Positions 471-61,308 of a stretch of DNA of 64,000 bases are shown here, piece after piece (within the stretch, counting starts at the first letter, position 1; each line of letters begins with the position of its first letter). The translations under genes were made by a program, and so were the position numbers. The notes beneath the pieces are model-generated. The model was not told the origin of the DNA. It made no database searches and saw nothing but the letters and a program-made list of their open reading frames with translations. This stretch comes from Hydrogenobaculum sp. Y04AAS1 (GTDB lineage Bacteria; Aquificota; Aquificia; Aquificales; Aquificaceae): contig NC_011126.1 of NCBI RefSeq assembly GCF_000020785.1, forward strand, positions 620,001 through 684,000, given 5' to 3'.

Positions 471-494
471 TGTATAAGTTCACTACATCGTGAA
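471..494 (+). repeat. Solo IS terminal repeat (left-end type)
   Basis: TGTATAAGTTC followed by CACTACATCGTGAA is nearly identical to the left end of the IS element at 2695-2722 and in the same orientation. It lies before the 3' end of the membrane-protein gene, so with the right ends at 4045-4105 it could bound a larger unit of about 3.6 kb. Confidence 0.6.
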
Positions 495-539
495 GAATAT
501 ATCTGTGTTAGTAAGTAAAATTATAAAAGCATGCAATTT

Positions 540-768
540 TCAATCAGAAGAGACATAAAATTTTACATGATAATGTTTATCATATTCTAAGTTTATGCCT
601 TTTACTACAATCTTTAAAGCTTTTATTTTTAGTAAATTATTTGTTTCTCCGTTCATTAGATTATTTAAATCATTTTGATTTGTAATAAGATATTTTATAA
701 ACAAATGATCTCTATAAACCATAGGGACTACGCGAAGAGGTCCAGCTACCGCATTGTTCGAAGCTTGA
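540..768 (-). pseudogene. Out-of-frame C-terminal segment of the 712-2466 membrane protein
   Basis: Directly after the (AT)7 tract the minus strand is open in another frame for 76 codons to the TGA at 540-542. It reads as a globular end with LRVVPMVYRDHLFIKYL near its start, the kind of periplasmic C-terminal domain expected of this large membrane protein. The annotated frame instead ends with a low-complexity, unlikely tail. Adding one AT unit would join the two into a protein of about 643 residues. A separate 60-codon gene from the internal ATG at 722 is possible but less likely. Confidence 0.65.
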
Positions 769-2466
769 ATATATATATATATGGCAAAGGGGTTTGTATA
801 GAGTATCTATAATATGTGATAAAAGAGTATTTTTAAATTCAATATCCATAAACTCAGCGTTTTGAGGTACTTTAACCCATTGATTAAACTCAGCTCTTAT
901 AGTTGATATCGGAAACAAATTTAAATTATTGCACGAGTTTTTTCTTGTAAACAGACTATACGGGTTCCCTGGGATTTTTAGTTTATAGCATGATAAAATT
1001 GCATCAAAAGTATATGGTTCAGAGAATAGTGGATATCTACCATCTATGTCCTGAAATGAATAAATTATATTTTGTAAATTATTGTTATTTAAAATCTGTT
1101 TAGCGTTCTGCTCATCAAGATATGGGGTATATGCAGAATATGTCTGTGGAATGACCTCGGGAATGAATTTAAAGTGATAACCCTGTGCCATCATAAGGTT
1201 CCATGCAATAATCGTAACTGGATTATTAGCCACAGCTTGAACAATTGATGGTGGAAGCTGAGACTGACTACGTATTGCATTATCGGTAAATTGCTGATAT
1301 TGCGTTCTTGCATGTTTGGAAGAAATAAGTTCTAAGAACTGTATAAAATTATAAGGCGGCAAAATATTGATTGCACCACCAATAATATTGAAACAGAATA
1401 TTAAAATAAAAATCAGATTGAGAAAATTGCTTGAAAATTCTAGTTTTGAGTAAATCAATATAGTAAAAGCTATCACAGTCAAAGAAACTGTGAAAAAATA
1501 TAAAGCATGGCCACCTATTAAACCAGGATCATGTCTAATGAACCCTTCTTTAAAAGAAAGAAACAATATTAAAAAAAGTAAAATAAGCTGGGAGAATAGG
1601 ACTTTTTGTTTTTTCTTGTAAGAGATTAAAATTAAATATAGAAAATATAAGATTGTAATTATCGCTACAAATGTTTGAACATGGTTACCGTTCAAGTACA
1701 TTGCTTGAGCGTATCCTTTTATAATTTCATACACTCCTACAAGCATAGATGGTATATTTATTAGATCTTGTCCAGTAAGTTTAAGGATAAGCAGAAAAGC
1801 TACAACAAAAGAAATTAAACCTATAAAGCTTTTAACAAATAATTTTTTGCTTTTAAAGCTATATCCTATTAAAAACGGATACAACAAGAGAAACATTACT
1901 GCAAGTGGGATAACGTTAAACTTAATCAAAGAACTCAAAGCCCATAGTATACCTGATAAAATATATCTTATTGTAATTATTTTATTATTTGTGAAATCGT
2001 AATCAAAAGTGTTTATAATTATAAAAGCACCCATAATATAAAAAGCAGTTGTAATAGAAATTGTTATTATAGCTACAATTGCAACTATCAATACATAATA
2101 AAAAAATATTCTATTGTTGATATTGTCCTTTTTGTTTTTAATAATATAAAAGTATAAGAAGTAGATCAACAACAATGAGAAACTAAACTTAGCAAGTATT
2201 TGTGATATAGATGCTATAAACCACAATAGATGATCACTATAAAAAAAAGGAATTCTCAAAAAACCGAGCGGACCTTCGGGCCATATTATTTGTTTGCCCC
2301 ATTGCAAATGATGCACAAGAGCATACTCCACAACCCACATCCACGATGTATCCAGTAAATCACCAGCTGGTGCGAGTGGTACTACCAATGAAGGAATAGT
2401 TGTAAATATCAAAAGGAATATAGCTATAATCATGAAAGTATTATTGTTCATTTTTAATTTCTTCAT
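712..2466 (-). CDS. Polytopic membrane protein, GT-C-like, frameshifted near its end
   Basis: About 584 residues. I start at ATG 2466, which has AGGAGG eight bases upstream, rather than the TTG one codon earlier. There are roughly ten hydrophobic helices between residues 10 and 380, then a soluble C-terminal part. An early loop holds acidic residues (AGDLLDTSWMW, WPEGPLG), the layout of GT-C-fold glycosyltransferases, but no family can be named with certainty. The last 18 residues after the AT tract are probably a frameshift artefact, because the natural continuation lies in the next frame (540-768). The gene lies between an IS end at 471 and another at 2695, so it may be a passenger gene. 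Confidence 0.7.
   Translation of the reverse strand: MKKLKMNNNTFMIIAIFLLIFTTIPSLVVPLAPAGDLLDTSWMWVVEYALVHHLQWGKQIIWPEGPLGFLRIPFFYSDHLLWFIASISQILAKFSFSLLLIYFLYFYIIKNKKDNINNRIFFYYVLIVAIVAIITISITTAFYIMGAFIIINTFDYDFTNNKIITIRYILSGILWALSSLIKFNVIPLAVMFLLLYPFLIGYSFKSKKLFVKSFIGLISFVVAFLLILKLTGQDLINIPSMLVGVYEIIKGYAQAMYLNGNHVQTFVAIITILYFLYLILISYKKKQKVLFSQLILLFLILFLSFKEGFIRHDPGLIGGHALYFFTVSLTVIAFTILIYSKLEFSSNFLNLIFILIFCFNIIGGAINILPPYNFIQFLELISSKHARTQYQQFTDNAIRSQSQLPPSIVQAVANNPVTIIAWNLMMAQGYHFKFIPEVIPQTYSAYTPYLDEQNAKQILNNNNLQNIIYSFQDIDGRYPLFSEPYTFDAILSCYKLKIPGNPYSLFTRKNSCNNLNLFPISTIRAEFNQWVKVPQNAEFMDIEFKNTLLSHIIDTLYKPLCHIYIYSSFEQCGSWTSSRSPYGL
769..782. repeat. (AT)7 dinucleotide tract at a frameshift
   Basis: Seven AT units lie inside the 3' part of the membrane-protein gene. 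Gain of one unit (+2 nt) restores the longer frame. Such tracts are prone to slipped-strand change; an assembly or sequencing error is the other explanation. Confidence 0.8.
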
Positions 2467-2581
2467 CAATAAACCCTCCTGTTGTTTAAAAGCATAGCAT
2501 ACCTTTTATAAACAATCATGAAAAAAAATTATATCATAAAGTTTGTGTATAAATTTGTTAGATTGTGAACATATATAAATT

Positions 2582-2630
2582 GTGACGGACTTATAAACTG
2601 TAGCATACTTGTGGGGCGTGGTATACTTGT
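2582..2630 (+). repeat. 18-bp tandem repeat, three units (family A)
   Basis: Three copies of a GTGGCATACTTGT-like core start at 2582, 2600 and 2618, exactly 18 bp apart. The same core and period recur at 45198-45228 and 46171-46237, and single copies occur in the IS transposase and pilus genes. It is intergenic here, just outside the IS left end. Confidence 0.75.
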
Positions 2631-2694
2631 GGTGATAAGTGTCTTTTAAGCAAACCCCAGTATGAAAATTATATCAACTTTCGTTTTTTATTAT

Positions 2695-2722
2695 TGTACA
2701 AGTTCACTACATCGTGAACACA
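2695..2722 (+). repeat. IS left terminal inverted repeat
   Basis: Starts TGTACAAGTTC and ends GTGAACACA. It pairs with the right ends at 4045-4072 and 4078-4105 and matches the solo end at 471. Confidence 0.75.
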
Positions 2723-2792
2723 TACCCACAAAAAAATTATAACACATCATCATAGGACTGCCTCGGAATTCTTTATACCATTGCCATTAACT

Positions 2793-2805
2793 GTGGCATA
2801 CTTGT
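2793..2805 (+). repeat. Family A repeat copy inside transposase 3' end
   Basis: GTGGCATACTTGT, antisense to the transposase, where it encodes part of KYATVNG. Confidence 0.6.
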
Positions 2806-3067
2806 AAGCTACTTCAGCAGGTGTTCTATAACCTAACGAACAATGAGGTCTTACAAAGTTATATTTTTCTATGTACTTCTCCAAGAGGCTATTAAGATGA
2901 TCTATTGTGTAATCTATACCTTCTATAAACCATAATTCTTCTTCTATTGTTCTTATTACCCGTTCAACATTACCATTGGTCTTAGGGGTTCTTGGATAAC
3001 TGTAGTAATGCTCTATCCCTATTTCTTTCAAGTACTTGTCAAACTCTCCCATAAATTCACTCCCATT

Positions 3068-3148
3068 GTAGTGTGCATAGCATTTTTTACATCGTATATG
3101 CCTGTTCTTTCGTAAACCCACGAAGTAAAATGCGATACTATCGCTCTC
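3068..3148 (-). repeat. Family D repeat inserted in frame in the DDE domain
   Basis: Twenty-seven codons sit between QT and NGSEF of the transposase. On the minus strand the DNA begins AGAGCGATAGTATCGCATTT, a GCGAT/ATCGC hairpin, followed by a GGGTTTA / AAAGAACAGGCA stretch. Copies at 47359-47397 and 47437-47475 in the pilus locus share the same ordered blocks. Confidence 0.7.
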
Positions 3149-3789
3149 TGTTTGAACTTTAGATATGCTAAATCCAAAGTATTTCATAGCCTCTTGGATA
3201 AAAAGCTTTGTGTTCCTTGATGTTTTATTCTTGTATACCTTTGCAAAGACAAGCCTACTGTGTTTGTCTATAGCTGTATACTGGTAATAAGTTATACCTC
3301 TTAGCATTAGATGTTTGAGATCTATCTGGATCACCTCACCAGGAGCTCTGGCTTTAAGGCCTGTCTTTATCCTCTTCTTATTGACGTTGTATTTCTTTTT
3401 TCTTTGTTGTTTTATACTCCTTGTTCTTTCTATTAACCCAAAGCCTTTTAGTACTCTGTAAATCGTTGATGGTGATACTTTTATACCCTTTTCTTTTTCT
3501 AGATATAGTGTGCTAAAAGCATTTCTCGGAGCTTTAGGGAGCCTTTGCCTGTTCTTTAACTCTGAAATGCGCTGATAGCGCTCTATTGCTATTTTCTCTT
3601 TGCTCCAAGTGGGATTGTTGTTTCTTATACGTATTATATCAAGTTCATATTTCTTTCTCACAGTTGGAGTTCTTTTTCTCAAAGGAGTTTTAGGTCTGTC
3701 TAAGAGTCCTTTCAATCCATCCTTTTGATATCTTTTGAGCCATTTGTAGAATGTGGTTCTTGATAGTGTGCCAGGGGCATTTCTTACTA

Positions 3790-3866
3790 TTGCGTGGCAT
3801 ACTTGTCGTGTGATAAGTGTATTCTAAGAACATGCTTATCTGAAACATGCTAAAGCACTATTGACA
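3790..3866 (-). repeat. Composite repeat block interrupting the transposase start
   Basis: Contains a family A core (GTGGCATACTTGT at 3794-3806 on the plus strand) and a GAAACATGCT/AAGCACT segment like those near 46125 and 47400-47435. On the transposase strand it introduces TAA and TAG in frame. The outer boundaries are approximate. Confidence 0.6.
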
Positions 3867-4044
3867 TATCGAAGCTTTCCTATTAAACTTTTTGAATATA
3901 GGGTGAATAATGTGGTTTGGGTACCTATCCTTCCCTTCATGGTACCCACCTCCTTTCTGAAATTCTTTCCATTCTCTCCTTAAAGTTTCTAAACATACAC
4001 ACTTACCTCCTTGTAAAATTTTAAGGAATATTTTAACAAGGTAA

Positions 4045-4072
4045 GTGTTCACAGTCTATCTGAACTTATACA
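4045..4072 (-). repeat. IS right terminal inverted repeat, first copy
   Basis: On the minus strand it reads TGTATAAGTTC, then CAGATAGACT, then GTGAACAC. It pairs with the left end at 2695-2722. Confidence 0.75.
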
Positions 4073-4077
4073 GGTGT

Positions 4078-4105
4078 GTGTTCATAGTCTATCTGAACTT
4101 ATACA
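4078..4105 (-). repeat. IS right terminal inverted repeat, second copy
   Basis: A near-identical tandem copy of the 4045-4072 end. It overlaps the last codons and stop of tsaD, so the IS end now supplies the tsaD terminus (LYKFR and TAG). Confidence 0.75.
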
Positions 4106-38499: not shown

Positions 38500-39240
38500 C
38501 TATTGGTTTAAAGCTGTTGTTGTGATAGGTACGTTGTTAGCACTACAACTAAGATAACTGTAATCACCACCAGTACTTGATACTGTGCACAAAAGACCTA
38601 AGGAGTTAAAAGCGTTTGATACAGCTTGAACATATTCGTTTGGTATTTGGCTTGTAAGAATTGTAAAAGATGTACTATTAGAAATATAAGACCATGTGGT
38701 AGCCCAGGGTCCTATAAAATGAAGCAAAGCACAACAATTGGCAGGATTTGACGGAGGGTGCGAGTTCCAATCACATATGCCTTGAGTACCGTTTAAACTG
38801 GACCATGAGTTTGCATCCGTACAACTAACCTGCGGATATGCCCCCAATACATCATAATAATCTTTTAAGCCTAAAACAAAAGTCCTTGCTTTGTAAGCAT
38901 AATTTTGCTCGTTAGTAGTAGCATGTATAGTCCTATATCCTATAAACACCGCTCCCAAAAATATGCTAACCACAGTAAACACCAACAAAAGCTCTATGAT
39001 AGAAAAGGCGAGTGGCCTCGCAAGAGGCTTATTAATATGCATGTAATCTGAGGGGGACAGTGGCCTGAAAGGCTTATTGAGATGCACATCTGTTGAAAAG
39101 GCGAGTGGCCTCGCAAGAGGCTTATTGAGATGCACATCTGTTGAAAAGGCGAGTGGCCTGAAAGGCTTATTGAAATACATGTTAGTTGAACCGGCTAGTG
39201 GCCTCGTAAGAGGCTTAACTCCTAGTTTATAGCTTTCCAT
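38500..39240 (-). CDS. Type IV prepilin-like protein with repeat-built leader
   Basis: 246 residues. The mature pilin begins at FSIIELLLVFTVVSIFLGA near residue 82 with Glu at position 5, after an Ala rather than Gly at the cleavage site. The body has several cysteines and a typical pseudopilin pattern. The leader is about 80 residues, made of five near-repeats of a 15-16-residue unit ending RPLA, encoded by the 45/48-bp DNA repeats. An ATG further inside the array would also be possible. Near-leaderless -10 (TAATAT) 7 nt before the ATG. It is transcribed away from the pilus operon. Confidence 0.8.
   Translation of the reverse strand: MESYKLGVKPLTRPLAGSTNMYFNKPFRPLAFSTDVHLNKPLARPLAFSTDVHLNKPFRPLSPSDYMHINKPLARPLAFSIIELLLVFTVVSIFLGAVFIGYRTIHATTNEQNYAYKARTFVLGLKDYYDVLGAYPQVSCTDANSWSSLNGTQGICDWNSHPPSNPANCCALLHFIGPWATTWSYISNSTSFTILTSQIPNEYVQAVSNAFNSLGLLCTVSSTGGDYSYLSCSANNVPITTTALNQ
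39011..39220 (-). repeat. Family B palindromic repeat array, five units
   Basis: Units start at 39011, 39059, 39104, 39152 and 39197 (48, 45, 48, 45 bp apart). The long form holds the palindrome GCCTCGCAAGAGGC, the short form GGCCTGAAAGGC, each followed by a TTATTGAGATGCACATCTG-like linker. All spacings are multiples of three and keep the prepilin leader frame. The same palindrome with the same 48-bp spacing occurs at 48230-48297. Confidence 0.9.
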
Positions 39241-46097: not shown

Positions 46098-47360
46098 TTG
46101 TTGAGCGCTTGTTTAATAAAAGCTTCTTTGAAACATGCTTGTCAGCACTCTGGAGTGAATCTTAATGTTGGCGGCAGACTTGTTTATCGTGGTGGACTTG
46201 TATCCCGTGGTAGACTTGTTGATCGTGGCAGACTTGTTATGTGGTTTATAATAGAAATTCTTTTAGCCTTGTCCATCTTATCTACCGTCTTGACTGGTAT
46301 TTATTATCTTATCCCAGCTTTTAATAGAAGCACAGATATAGCAAAATCTCAAGTAAAAAGTATAAATTTAAAAAATGCTCTTTTAAATGTATATATGGAT
46401 ATAGCCGGGGCCGAAGAAAATTGCGGTGGGTATAGCGTTTGTCCTGCAACTCCTTTACCTTGCAACATTTCTTATACAAACGGCGGTATTAGTTTTAGCT
46501 ATGTAATAAGTCAAAACTTAAATGTTGCAACGCCCATCCAAAGCGCTTTTAATCAAGCTGGATGCTCTACTACTTTAAATAGCAACACGCTATCTATATT
46601 TTGTCCTAGTTTTACAGCTTCTAGCATAGATTTTTGTTCCAATTCAAATTATGAATCTTATACATTCGTAAACCCAGACCCGCCAATGCCTAGTATAACT
46701 TTTTATACAATACTACAACCAAACAACCCAGCAAGCCCATTATCAGCCCCTTATGTAGTAGATTATACACCTATATATCAGTACTATCAAAATCAGTCTC
46801 TTTCAAAATTTGAACAAATAGCGTCAGGTATGAAAAACTATGTACTAGAAAGAAGGACCTCTGAAATAGCAAACTCTTGTACATGGAATGGTTCCGACAA
46901 GTCTGCCACGGGATATTGGACAGGAGGTATGGAATCGAGCTACGATTTTTATATACCATGGATTTTACAAGCATGCTCTAGCTCTCCAAACCTTCTATGT
47001 CAAACTCAGGCAAACCAAAGCGTTTGCTCCAACTCTTGTACAAACATAAGCTTATCCCAAAACTGCAGCATAACTACGCTTCTTACAAACGTAGGATTGG
47101 TCACAAGTCTGCCACGGTCTAGTTCCACAGCTTCTAGTTTTTATTATGTGGATGGTTTTGGAAACTCTATTACGATAGTGCCTTATGCAAATTTACAAGA
47201 AACTTTAGCCGATATACATCCATCTTTTTCATACATGACTCTATGTCAAAGCGGTACAAATTGTCCGCCGTTTGCCGGAGTTATAACACTAAGCAACACC
47301 AACGTCAGCTGTGTACAAGCTGGCGCACCCTATTGTTATTTACAATTTACATATCCTTAG
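46098..47360 (+). CDS. Large prepilin-like protein with 18-bp-repeat leader
   Basis: Up to 420 residues from TTG 46098; the true start is uncertain. The prepilin helix is WFIIEILLALSILSTVLTG near residue 49, with Glu at position 5 if cleavage follows Met48. The leader just before it is a run of GRLV-type six-residue repeats from the 18-bp DNA array. The body is long, Ser/Asn-rich and has some 18 cysteines, as in large minor pilins or adhesins. Two further family A cores lie in frame on the opposite strand (46897 and 47103). The stop falls inside a family D repeat. Confidence 0.65.
   Translation: MLSACLIKASLKHACQHSGVNLNVGGRLVYRGGLVSRGRLVDRGRLVMWFIIEILLALSILSTVLTGIYYLIPAFNRSTDIAKSQVKSINLKNALLNVYMDIAGAEENCGGYSVCPATPLPCNISYTNGGISFSYVISQNLNVATPIQSAFNQAGCSTTLNSNTLSIFCPSFTASSIDFCSNSNYESYTFVNPDPPMPSITFYTILQPNNPASPLSAPYVVDYTPIYQYYQNQSLSKFEQIASGMKNYVLERRTSEIANSCTWNGSDKSATGYWTGGMESSYDFYIPWILQACSSSPNLLCQTQANQSVCSNSCTNISLSQNCSITTLLTNVGLVTSLPRSSSTASSFYYVDGFGNSITIVPYANLQETLADIHPSFSYMTLCQSGTNCPPFAGVITLSNTNVSCVQAGAPYCYLQFTYP
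46171..46237 (+). repeat. Family A 18-bp tandem array in a prepilin leader
   Basis: Four units start at 46171, 46189, 46207 and 46225, exactly 18 bp apart, with core GTGGYRGACTTGT. Encodes GRLV/GGLV repeats with basic residues. Confidence 0.9.
46897..46909 (-). repeat. Family A core inside the prepilin body
   Basis: ACAAGTCTGCCAC on the plus strand, encoding part of DKSATG. Confidence 0.55.
47103..47115 (-). repeat. Family A core inside the prepilin body
   Basis: ACAAGTCTGCCAC on the plus strand, encoding part of TSLPRS. Confidence 0.55.
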
Positions 47361-47535
47361 AGCGGCTATGACGCATTTCATGGTTAATGAGCAGGCAATG
47401 GCACTCAAGAGCTCAGAGAAATGCTTGGAGCACACTAGAGCGATGAGATCGCATTTCGGGTCTAAAGAACAGACAAGTATGCCACGATTCACAATGGCAC
47501 TTCAAAGTTTAGGAAAATACCTAAAGCACACAAAA
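47359..47535 (+). repeat. Composite repeat block between pilin-like genes
   Basis: Two family D copies (47359-47397 and 47437-47475, 78 bp apart; AGAGCG-N5-CGCATTT core), two family C copies (47400-47435 and 47496-47531; GGCACT, AAATRC and AGCACAC blocks) and one reversed family A core (47473-47485). The block replaces an ordinary intergenic region and is open in the frame of the next gene from 47466. Confidence 0.7.
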
Positions 47536-48229: not shown

Positions 48230-48297
48230 AAGCCTCTTGAGAGGCCACTAGACCAGTTAAAAAATATGCATTCAAATAAGCCTCTTGAGAGGCCACT
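48230..48297 (+). repeat. Family B palindromic repeat, two units
   Basis: The 14-bp palindrome GCCTCTTGAGAGGC with flanking AA and CACT occurs twice (from 48230 and 48278), 48 bp apart, the spacing used in the 39-kb array but on the other strand. It lies before the ATPase promoter. Confidence 0.85.
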
Positions 48298-48301
48298 ATG
48301 T

Positions 48302-59547: not shown

Positions 59548-61308
59548 ATGCCTTGGGCCTCTTCACAGACCTTAGATAGAATAAAGCACACTTTTAGAAA
59601 GATAAGCATAGATACTCAACCAAACTTTGTTTGCATAAATGTAGAAGATAATCAAGAAATTACAAGCATACTAAAACACTTAAAGGATATTGAGGATTTC
59701 AGATACTTTATAGATTTTCACGTAATAGATTTCCCTAAAGAAAAAGATAGGTTTTTAGGGCAATATATACTTGTAAATCCTTATACTTTTGAAAGGCTAG
59801 CTATAAAAGTATGGTTCAAATCAAATAAACTTCCAACTGCAAAAGAAATATTCGCCGGTGCCAAATGGGCCGAAAGAGAAGCTTACGACATGTTTGGCGT
59901 AGAATTTGAAGGTCACGAAGATATTAAAAGGATGTTTATGTGGGAAGACTACAAATACTTCCCACTGAGAAAAGATTTCCCACTTGGTGGTATAGCAGAA
60001 CAGAAATTGCCTTCCTTAATTGAAGTTTTAGAAGGTAATATATTTCCGCCTTCTCATGACTATGAGATAATGCACACTTATGTACCTACCATGAAAGATA
60101 TAGAAAAAACAGAGAAATCAAGAATTACTAAAAAGGGTCAACTGGTGTTAAATTGGGGGCCATTGCACCCAGGTACGCACGGTACCATGTGGTTTTTGTT
60201 TGATCTTGAGGGTGAGCATATTATACAAACTGATGTTATATTGGGTCAACTTCATAGAGGAATGGAAAAGATAGCAGAAAATCTTCACTACTTTCAATTT
60301 TTACCTTATACAGACAGAATGGATTATCTATCTGCAGTTTGCAACGAGCTTTCTTACGTACAAGCTGTAGAAAAACTTGCCAACATAGAGGTTCCTTTAA
60401 AAGCCAAATATATAAGAACAATGTTTGCAGAGCTTCAGCGTATAAACTCACACCTTCTATGGCTTGGTACAGGAGCACTTGATCTTGGTGCTTTGACTGT
60501 ATTCTTATACGCTTTTAGAGAAAGAGAAAAAATAATGGATATAATAGAAGGTAACGCAGGTTTTAGATTAACATCGGCATTTTTGAGGATAGGAGGGGTA
60601 CATTACGATTTGGCAAAAGGTACACTGGAAGTAGCAAAGTATTTTGCGAAAGACTTTTATTCAAAGTTAAAAGAGTATCATGGGCTTTTAACAAGAAATA
60701 GAATATGGTTAAAGCGTACCAAAGACGTGGGAGTTATAACTCAAGAAGATGTTTATCAGTATGGTCTTACTGGCCCTGTGGCTAGAGGATCTGGAGTAGC
60801 TTATGATATGAGAAAGATAGATCCATATGCCGCTTACGACTTGGTGGATTTTGATATACCAGTTGGTGATATTGGAGATGTTTACGATAGATATTTAGTA
60901 AGAATGGAAGAGATGTATCAAAGCGCTCGCATAGTAGAACAATGTATAGAAGCCTTAGAAAAGATGCCAGAAAACGAACCATATGTAAATAAAAAGCACC
61001 CAGCAGTGATACCTCCAAAAGAAGATGTATTCGACGATTTGGAGGACATGGTGAAATCTTTTAGGATTGTGGTACACGGCGAAAATATACCAAAAGGAGA
61101 AGTTTATTCATCCGGGGAAAATCCCAGAGGTGAACTTGGATTTTATATATATTCAATAGGTAAATCATCCCCTTATAGACTTAGAATAAGGTCTTGCTCT
61201 TTTTACAACTTGTCAGTATTTCCAAAAGTTATATATAAACACACAATTTCTGATGCCGTAGCTCTTCTTGGTAGTATAGATCCTGTAGTAGGAGAGACTG
61301 ACAGATGA
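59548..61308 (+). CDS. nuoCD: NADH-quinone oxidoreductase fused subunit CD
   Basis: 586 residues from ATG 59548, two bases after the nuoB stop; the TTG 12 bp earlier is less likely. Residues 1-165 are the NuoC part (EREAYDMFGVEFEGH), about 190-586 the NuoD part (GPLHPGTHGTMWF, LHRGMEKIAE, GPVARGSGVAYDMR). The single fused gene is a lineage trait in some groups. Confidence 0.96.
   Translation: MPWASSQTLDRIKHTFRKISIDTQPNFVCINVEDNQEITSILKHLKDIEDFRYFIDFHVIDFPKEKDRFLGQYILVNPYTFERLAIKVWFKSNKLPTAKEIFAGAKWAEREAYDMFGVEFEGHEDIKRMFMWEDYKYFPLRKDFPLGGIAEQKLPSLIEVLEGNIFPPSHDYEIMHTYVPTMKDIEKTEKSRITKKGQLVLNWGPLHPGTHGTMWFLFDLEGEHIIQTDVILGQLHRGMEKIAENLHYFQFLPYTDRMDYLSAVCNELSYVQAVEKLANIEVPLKAKYIRTMFAELQRINSHLLWLGTGALDLGALTVFLYAFREREKIMDIIEGNAGFRLTSAFLRIGGVHYDLAKGTLEVAKYFAKDFYSKLKEYHGLLTRNRIWLKRTKDVGVITQEDVYQYGLTGPVARGSGVAYDMRKIDPYAAYDLVDFDIPVGDIGDVYDRYLVRMEEMYQSARIVEQCIEALEKMPENEPYVNKKHPAVIPPKEDVFDDLEDMVKSFRIVVHGENIPKGEVYSSGENPRGELGFYIYSIGKSSPYRLRIRSCSFYNLSVFPKVIYKHTISDAVALLGSIDPVVGETDR

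Follow-up and report, generated by a model that had tools for sequence, protein, structure and literature searches.

What is the segment that interrupts the catalytic core of an IS481-type transposase in Hydrogenobaculum sp. Y04AAS1, and does it belong to the repeat found between the pilin genes of the same genome? The stretch of DNA analysed here (the window) is 64,000 nucleotides long and covers positions 620001–684000 of the single-contig genome of 1,559,514 bp (genome G000). A preliminary description of the window had proposed that 27 extra codons split the expected QTDNGSEF motif of the transposase, that their DNA is shared with the repeat between the pilin genes (“family D”), that this family can move into a gene in frame, and that it did so after the IS had arrived. 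We conclude, with a probability of roughly 87%, that the segment is a copy of a non-autonomous mobile palindromic element, whose in-frame landings survive and are presumably translated as an extra loop of 26 residues.

The interrupted open frame (Table 1) matched the domains PF13011 (IS481-type HTH/leucine zipper), PF00665 (rve) and PF13683 (rve_3) in a domain search. The rve match ends at the start of element copy 1, and the rve_3 match begins past this copy. Intact relatives with clean boundaries, which the preliminary description had suggested looking for, exist in four genomes: the transposases from G004, G036, G038 and G040 read QTDNGSEF or QTDNGTEF, lack copy 1, and align with a clean gap of 26 codons. 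The motif is thus split as described and the family can indeed enter a gene in frame, but the insert is one codon shorter than proposed, because the count of 27 includes the GAG that replaces the Asp codon. Copy 2, which is located 360 bp upstream of copy 1 in the same gene, also corresponds to a 26-codon gap (own residues 45–70) and is likewise absent from the relatives in G004, G038 and G040. That all copies of the IS carry the segment, or that it forms a native domain, were the two outcomes named as fatal to the initial proposal; both are contradicted by the relatives without the segment.

The DDE triad of the window transposase is not intact, as its second acidic residue (QTD/NG) is split and the Asp codon replaced by GAG; the base before copy 1 is G (site G^A), and the junction reads GAG AGC. 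With its catalytic Asp codon gone and its N-terminus disrupted, the gene is probably dead, and it says little about whether in-frame insertion is harmless. Strong cases are found elsewhere in the genome, namely in ileS, nrdA, topoisomerase, trmFO and the tmRNA gene. As for the order of events, the relatives without copy 1 show that the IS lineage is older than the insert, and in this sense the element moved after the IS arrived. However, the same junction between insert and NGSEF is present in an IS fragment with stops at a non-syntenic position of the sister species (G003:599269), and the insertion therefore predates the present location of the window IS copy. At the syntenic place in G003, the window stretch 472–4105 (3.6 kb, comprising the gene of a 585-aa membrane-like protein and the IS) is wholly absent. 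A contig scan with the transposase matched only an archaeal MAG contig and, remotely, Blautia. Contig DAXV01000050.1, labelled Acidilobaceae archaeon and possibly mis-binned, encodes a relative of the Aquificota transposase with an empty site. A tandem 33-bp repeat with GTTCACAGTCTATCTGAACTTATAC occupies window positions 4039–4104 and is possibly an IS end.

Table 1 Element copies, companion repeats and host genes. Coordinates refer to the window unless genome and contig are given.
Feature	Coordinates	Strand	Remarks
IS481-type transposase open frame	2753..3823	-	357 codons; interrupted by copies 1 and 2, both in frame
Element copy 1	3070..3147	-	78-bp unit AGAGCG...CACACT; separates QTD from NGSEF; net insert 26 codons
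Element copy 2	3507..3584	-	78-bp unit, in frame (ERYQRISELKNRQRLPKAPRNAFSTL); between WSKEKIAI and YLEKEKG; profile E 1.9e-18
Partial element copy (weak)	3764..3825	-	covers lost transposase N-terminus; covariance-model E = 0.056
Element copy at end of upstream pilin-region gene	47359..47436	+	first bases give the TAG stop of that gene
Tandem second element copy	47437..47531	+	nested short repeat ACAAGTATGCCACG at 47473-47486
Short companion repeat ACAAGTATGCCACG (also given as ACAAGTNTRCCACG)	2617-2630, 2792-2805, 3793-3806, 46206-46219, 46224-46237	-	pattern matches
Short companion repeat ACAAGTATGCCACG	46897-46910, 47103-47116, 47473-47486	+	pattern matches
tmRNA gene with one element copy	G000:C1:60287-60712		426 nt; element at 60555-60633
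ileS			945 aa; in-frame copy
nrdA, class I ribonucleotide reductase alpha			1006 aa; four in-frame copies
Topoisomerase IA			777 aa; in-frame copy
trmFO			460 aa; in-frame copy
DinG/YoaA-type helicase			738 aa; two in-frame copies
CDP-alcohol (CDP-OH) transferase, pgsA-like			241 aa; in-frame copy
EAL protein			312 aa; two in-frame copies
Glycosyltransferase			1039 aa; two in-frame copies
Second EAL protein, TnpB, 703-aa protein			three antisense copies

An alignment of 42 family copies underlies both the profile and the covariance model used here. Copy 1 scored E = 3.5e-12 with the profile and E = 4.1e-12 with the covariance model, being itself among the 42 sequences of both models, and its comparison with the rest of the genome gave further matches with E values down to 1.5e-23. 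The profile also assigned both pilin-region copies to the family, which confirms that the segment at the transposase Asp and the repeat between the pilin genes are members of one family. In the pilin region, the element contributes with its first bases the TAG stop of a 420-aa gene (window 47351–47361), and the insertion thus defines the C-terminus of that protein. With the covariance model, approximately 70 copies were detected in G000 and approximately 50 in the sister species G003; G004 gave a single marginal match, and G001 and G002 gave no match. In a search of 61 genomes from the genus, family and order, G000 and G003 were the only carriers, and the family was not found in the other 59. 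Intergenic copies are frequently arranged in tandem, head to tail.

The consensus of the element is AGAGCG-hairpin-CATTTC ... GAGAAATGC...GCACACT with a length of ~78 bp. It has a stem-loop at its 5' end (G-C-G-N ... N-C-G-C), whose variable pair changes via A-U, C-G, G-C and U-A, and these are compensatory changes. The covariation score of this conserved 5' hairpin was reached in 0 of 500 shuffles and dropped at every slide. Support for the central inverted repeat (CATTTC ... GAGAAATG) was partial, with 59% of helix 3 paired, and the 3' hairpin showed no covariation (p = 0.36). The ends of the element are imperfect inverted repeats with a weak similarity to each other. Folding energies were mixed (z = −3.9 for the tmRNA copy, +0.9 to −2.4 for the others). 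In an Rfam scan no family matched the element, the sole match being a tRNA, and a 14-base pattern scan of viral contigs gave single scattered matches only, which we take as chance.

Two further repeats were noticed in the window. The short companion repeat (Table 1) has eight matches where 0.02 were expected; its spacing is sometimes 18 bp, in frame, and it is also nested in the 78-bp element. It occurs in genes of G001 (topoisomerase) and G004 (IS) as well, and is possibly a separate mobile or uptake-type sequence. A third family with a GTGGCCTC..GAGGC hairpin core is arranged in tandem at window positions 39002–39187 and 48262–48300.

Placing the family copies by an open-frame scan and domain searches located approximately 20 of them in frame inside long genes of G000. 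The element has thus entered conserved protein genes of differing functions in frame (Table 1). Only one gene in G000 exceeded the family cut-off for ileS, and the interrupted ileS copy must therefore work. When nrdA is aligned to a solved class I reductase (5im3), copies 1–3 coincide with the interruptions that separate the aligned blocks, and copy 4 is situated past these blocks. All 14 complete copies inside genes have a length that is a multiple of three, compared to 16 of 33 copies outside (Fisher p = 6e-4), and this is a mark of selection on the reading frame. An excess of open frames among the intergenic copies alone was not significant (p = 0.066). Inside genes, 16 copies are in sense and three in antisense orientation (p = 0.004), an excess that is partly accounted for by open-frame bias.

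Orthologues of the host genes in G001, G002, G004 and often G003 are without the inserts, and most sites are exact to the base. At the DNA level, empty sites were found in up to four congeneric genomes for nrdA site 1, dinG site 1, trmFO, the glycosyltransferase, pgsA and the EAL gene. For example, CCT/AAG in nrdA corresponds to CCT[78 bp]AAG in the filled site, and GGAATATTT in dinG corresponds to GAAATA[GAGCG...CACAC]TATTT; for trmFO and the glycosyltransferase the gap is 0. No copy occupies the topoisomerase site in G001 and G004; in G003 this site has a shortened copy that is still in frame. No fewer than eight insertions distinguish the two sister species, each being found in only one of them. 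Those found in G000 but not in G003 include nrdA site 1, dinG site 1, the glycosyltransferase, pgsA, trmFO, ileS and tmRNA, and a tandem pair near the nrdA N-terminus occurs only in G003. As each carrier thus has private insertions, the element kept moving after the two species diverged, short of a scenario with exact loss. At two shared sites, nrdA site 2 and a 740-aa EAL gene, the inserts of G000 and G003 are ~78% identical compared to 89–94% for the flanks, perhaps owing to conversion between copies.

At most sites the element is inserted at T^A. Such a site is consistent with AGAGCG...CACACT entering between the T and the A and equally with a duplicated TA, and the two readings are indistinguishable. 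The pattern TA[GAGCG...CACAC]TA with a single TA in the empty site was observed for nrdA sites 1 and 2, dinG site 1, topoisomerase and the N-terminal nrdA site of G003. Four of the ~13 sites with known empty state have other junctions (T^T in EAL, T^C in pgsA, A^T in tmRNA and G^A in the window IS). At TA sites, one sense phase necessarily reads TAG, and the copies inside genes take the other two phases, with the exception of the window IS copy. It is the TAG-bearing phase that ends the pilin-region gene at 47359. The original boundaries are blurred for the copies in ileS, glycosyltransferase site 2 and topoisomerase, which have suffered erosion or truncation in one genome; in the trmFO copy the usual first bases are missing and ~11 bp are duplicated.

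The tmRNA gene offers a case outside protein-coding DNA. It is 348–349 nt long in G001–G004, compared to the length of the G000 gene given in Table 1, and the difference is exactly one element copy; the junction can be explained by the insertion of 78 bp with no duplication. For Hydrogenobaculum sp. Y04AAS1, a hairpin-like insertion of 78 nt in tmRNA pseudoknot 4 has been published as a previously unreported extension (PMC4227106). Where that paper describes it, it is presented as an isolated oddity, without a link to a repeat family. This insertion is very probably a copy of the 78-bp element family.

The family has moved recently in the two Hydrogenobaculum species, chiefly into T^A sites, with clean landings that preserve the frame. 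Its usual length is divisible by three and two of the three sense phases are open in many copies, and for these reasons frame-keeping insertions would survive and be translated, presumably as a loop of 26 residues. The host proteins (ileS, nrdA, topoisomerase IA, trmFO, the helicase and others) would presumably still be functional, and the tmRNA would bear its extra 78 nt as an added hairpin. In the IS481 transposase, the insertion has taken out the second catalytic acidic residue. Movement is likely to depend on an enzyme that acts in trans on the element ends.

Two alternatives concern the segment and its placement. The open reading frame across the segment would agree with a native variable loop or domain of the transposase family, but intact relatives read QTDNGSEF without it and similar DNA occurs in unrelated genes and between genes; this reading has next to no probability, and we rejected it based on the empty sites in relatives. 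It could also be argued that the in-frame positions are chance, the element landing anywhere and the affected genes dying. The window IS, which has lost its catalytic Asp and its N-terminus, and the G003 fragment with stops fit this scenario. We nevertheless regard it as very improbable, because all complete in-gene copies are in frame and reside in long genes without other visible damage, among them the single-copy ileS.

The remaining alternatives concern the machinery that would move the element. A classical MITE of the IS630/Tc1-mariner type would duplicate its TA target, possess terminal inverted repeats and depend on a DDE transposase that has since been lost. This is a plausible origin, although its odds stay somewhat below even: many sites with a single TA in the empty state and the imperfect inverted repeats at the ends agree with it, whereas the likeness between the two ends is weak, four of the known empty sites are not TA, the tmRNA junction needs no duplication, and the G000 genome gave no match to a DDE_3 (IS630-type) protein at E ≤ 0.01. 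A Y1/HUH enzyme acting on single-stranded DNA in the style of IS200/IS605 or REP/RAYT would read an end hairpin and leave no target duplication. Such a route would suit the compensatory changes in the 5' mini-hairpin, the several junctions compatible with duplication-free insertion, the sense bias inside genes (in part an open-frame bias) and the presence of TnpB in the G000 genome. We consider it unlikely, as the 3' hairpin lacks covariation and REP elements are shorter and extragenic. Bolder still, and doubtful at present, is the proposal of a precise 26-codon protein-coding cassette that was recently active in Hydrogenobaculum through an undescribed machinery other than that of a DDE MITE, that would add repeated peptides to essential enzymes (as many as four in a single ribonucleotide reductase), and that would represent a second, independently evolved system of the type of the Rickettsia palindromic elements (RPEs) outside the Rickettsiales.

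Several consequences follow for Hydrogenobaculum if the segment is a mobile palindromic element. Its published tmRNA oddity would be accounted for by the element, and annotated protein lengths should be used with caution, as they include mobile DNA. Thanks to the insertions that differ between species and to the exact empty sites, how the element moves, how selection acts on the frame and how far proteins tolerate the insert can be tested directly in enzymes whose relatives have solved structures.

The tmRNA insert was the only description of the 78-bp element family that we found in the literature searched. TA-target MITEs (Correia/NEMIS, RUP, ERIC) are likewise small, non-autonomous and bounded by TA termini, and some contain open frames fused to genes (PMC2229807). 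However, those listed are ~100–200 bp long and RUP is intergenic, whereas in Hydrogenobaculum the TA is not universal and no IS630-type partner was found. REP/BIME sequences with RAYT transposases are also short hairpin repeats that form arrays, but REPs measure 20–40 bp and are extragenic (PMC3733652), unlike the Hydrogenobaculum element. The closest resemblance in behaviour is to RPEs and the protein-coding palindromes of Wolbachia, short palindromic repeats that are inserted in frame in unrelated conserved genes and kept as an extra peptide (PMC10969869, PMC2229807, PMC3767692). Protein-coding palindromic elements were called unique to Rickettsia and later found in Wolbachia, both of which are intracellular, and the Rickettsia elements have also entered tmRNA (PMC2229807). 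Like RPEs, the Hydrogenobaculum element is located in frame in conserved genes and, independently, in tmRNA. Unlike RPEs, which are 100–150 bp long, it has a unit of 78 bp, and its host belongs to the Aquificota and not to the Rickettsiales. It further differs from them by its mostly T^A sites, its tandem arrays, its occurrence in up to four copies per gene and its polymorphism between sister species. By analogy, the element works like an RPE but, judging by the descriptions, probably belongs to an unrelated family and is not classed as one. An RPE-like element in a free-living thermophile, its visit to tmRNA included, would mean that the phenomenon recurs and that an intracellular host is not needed.
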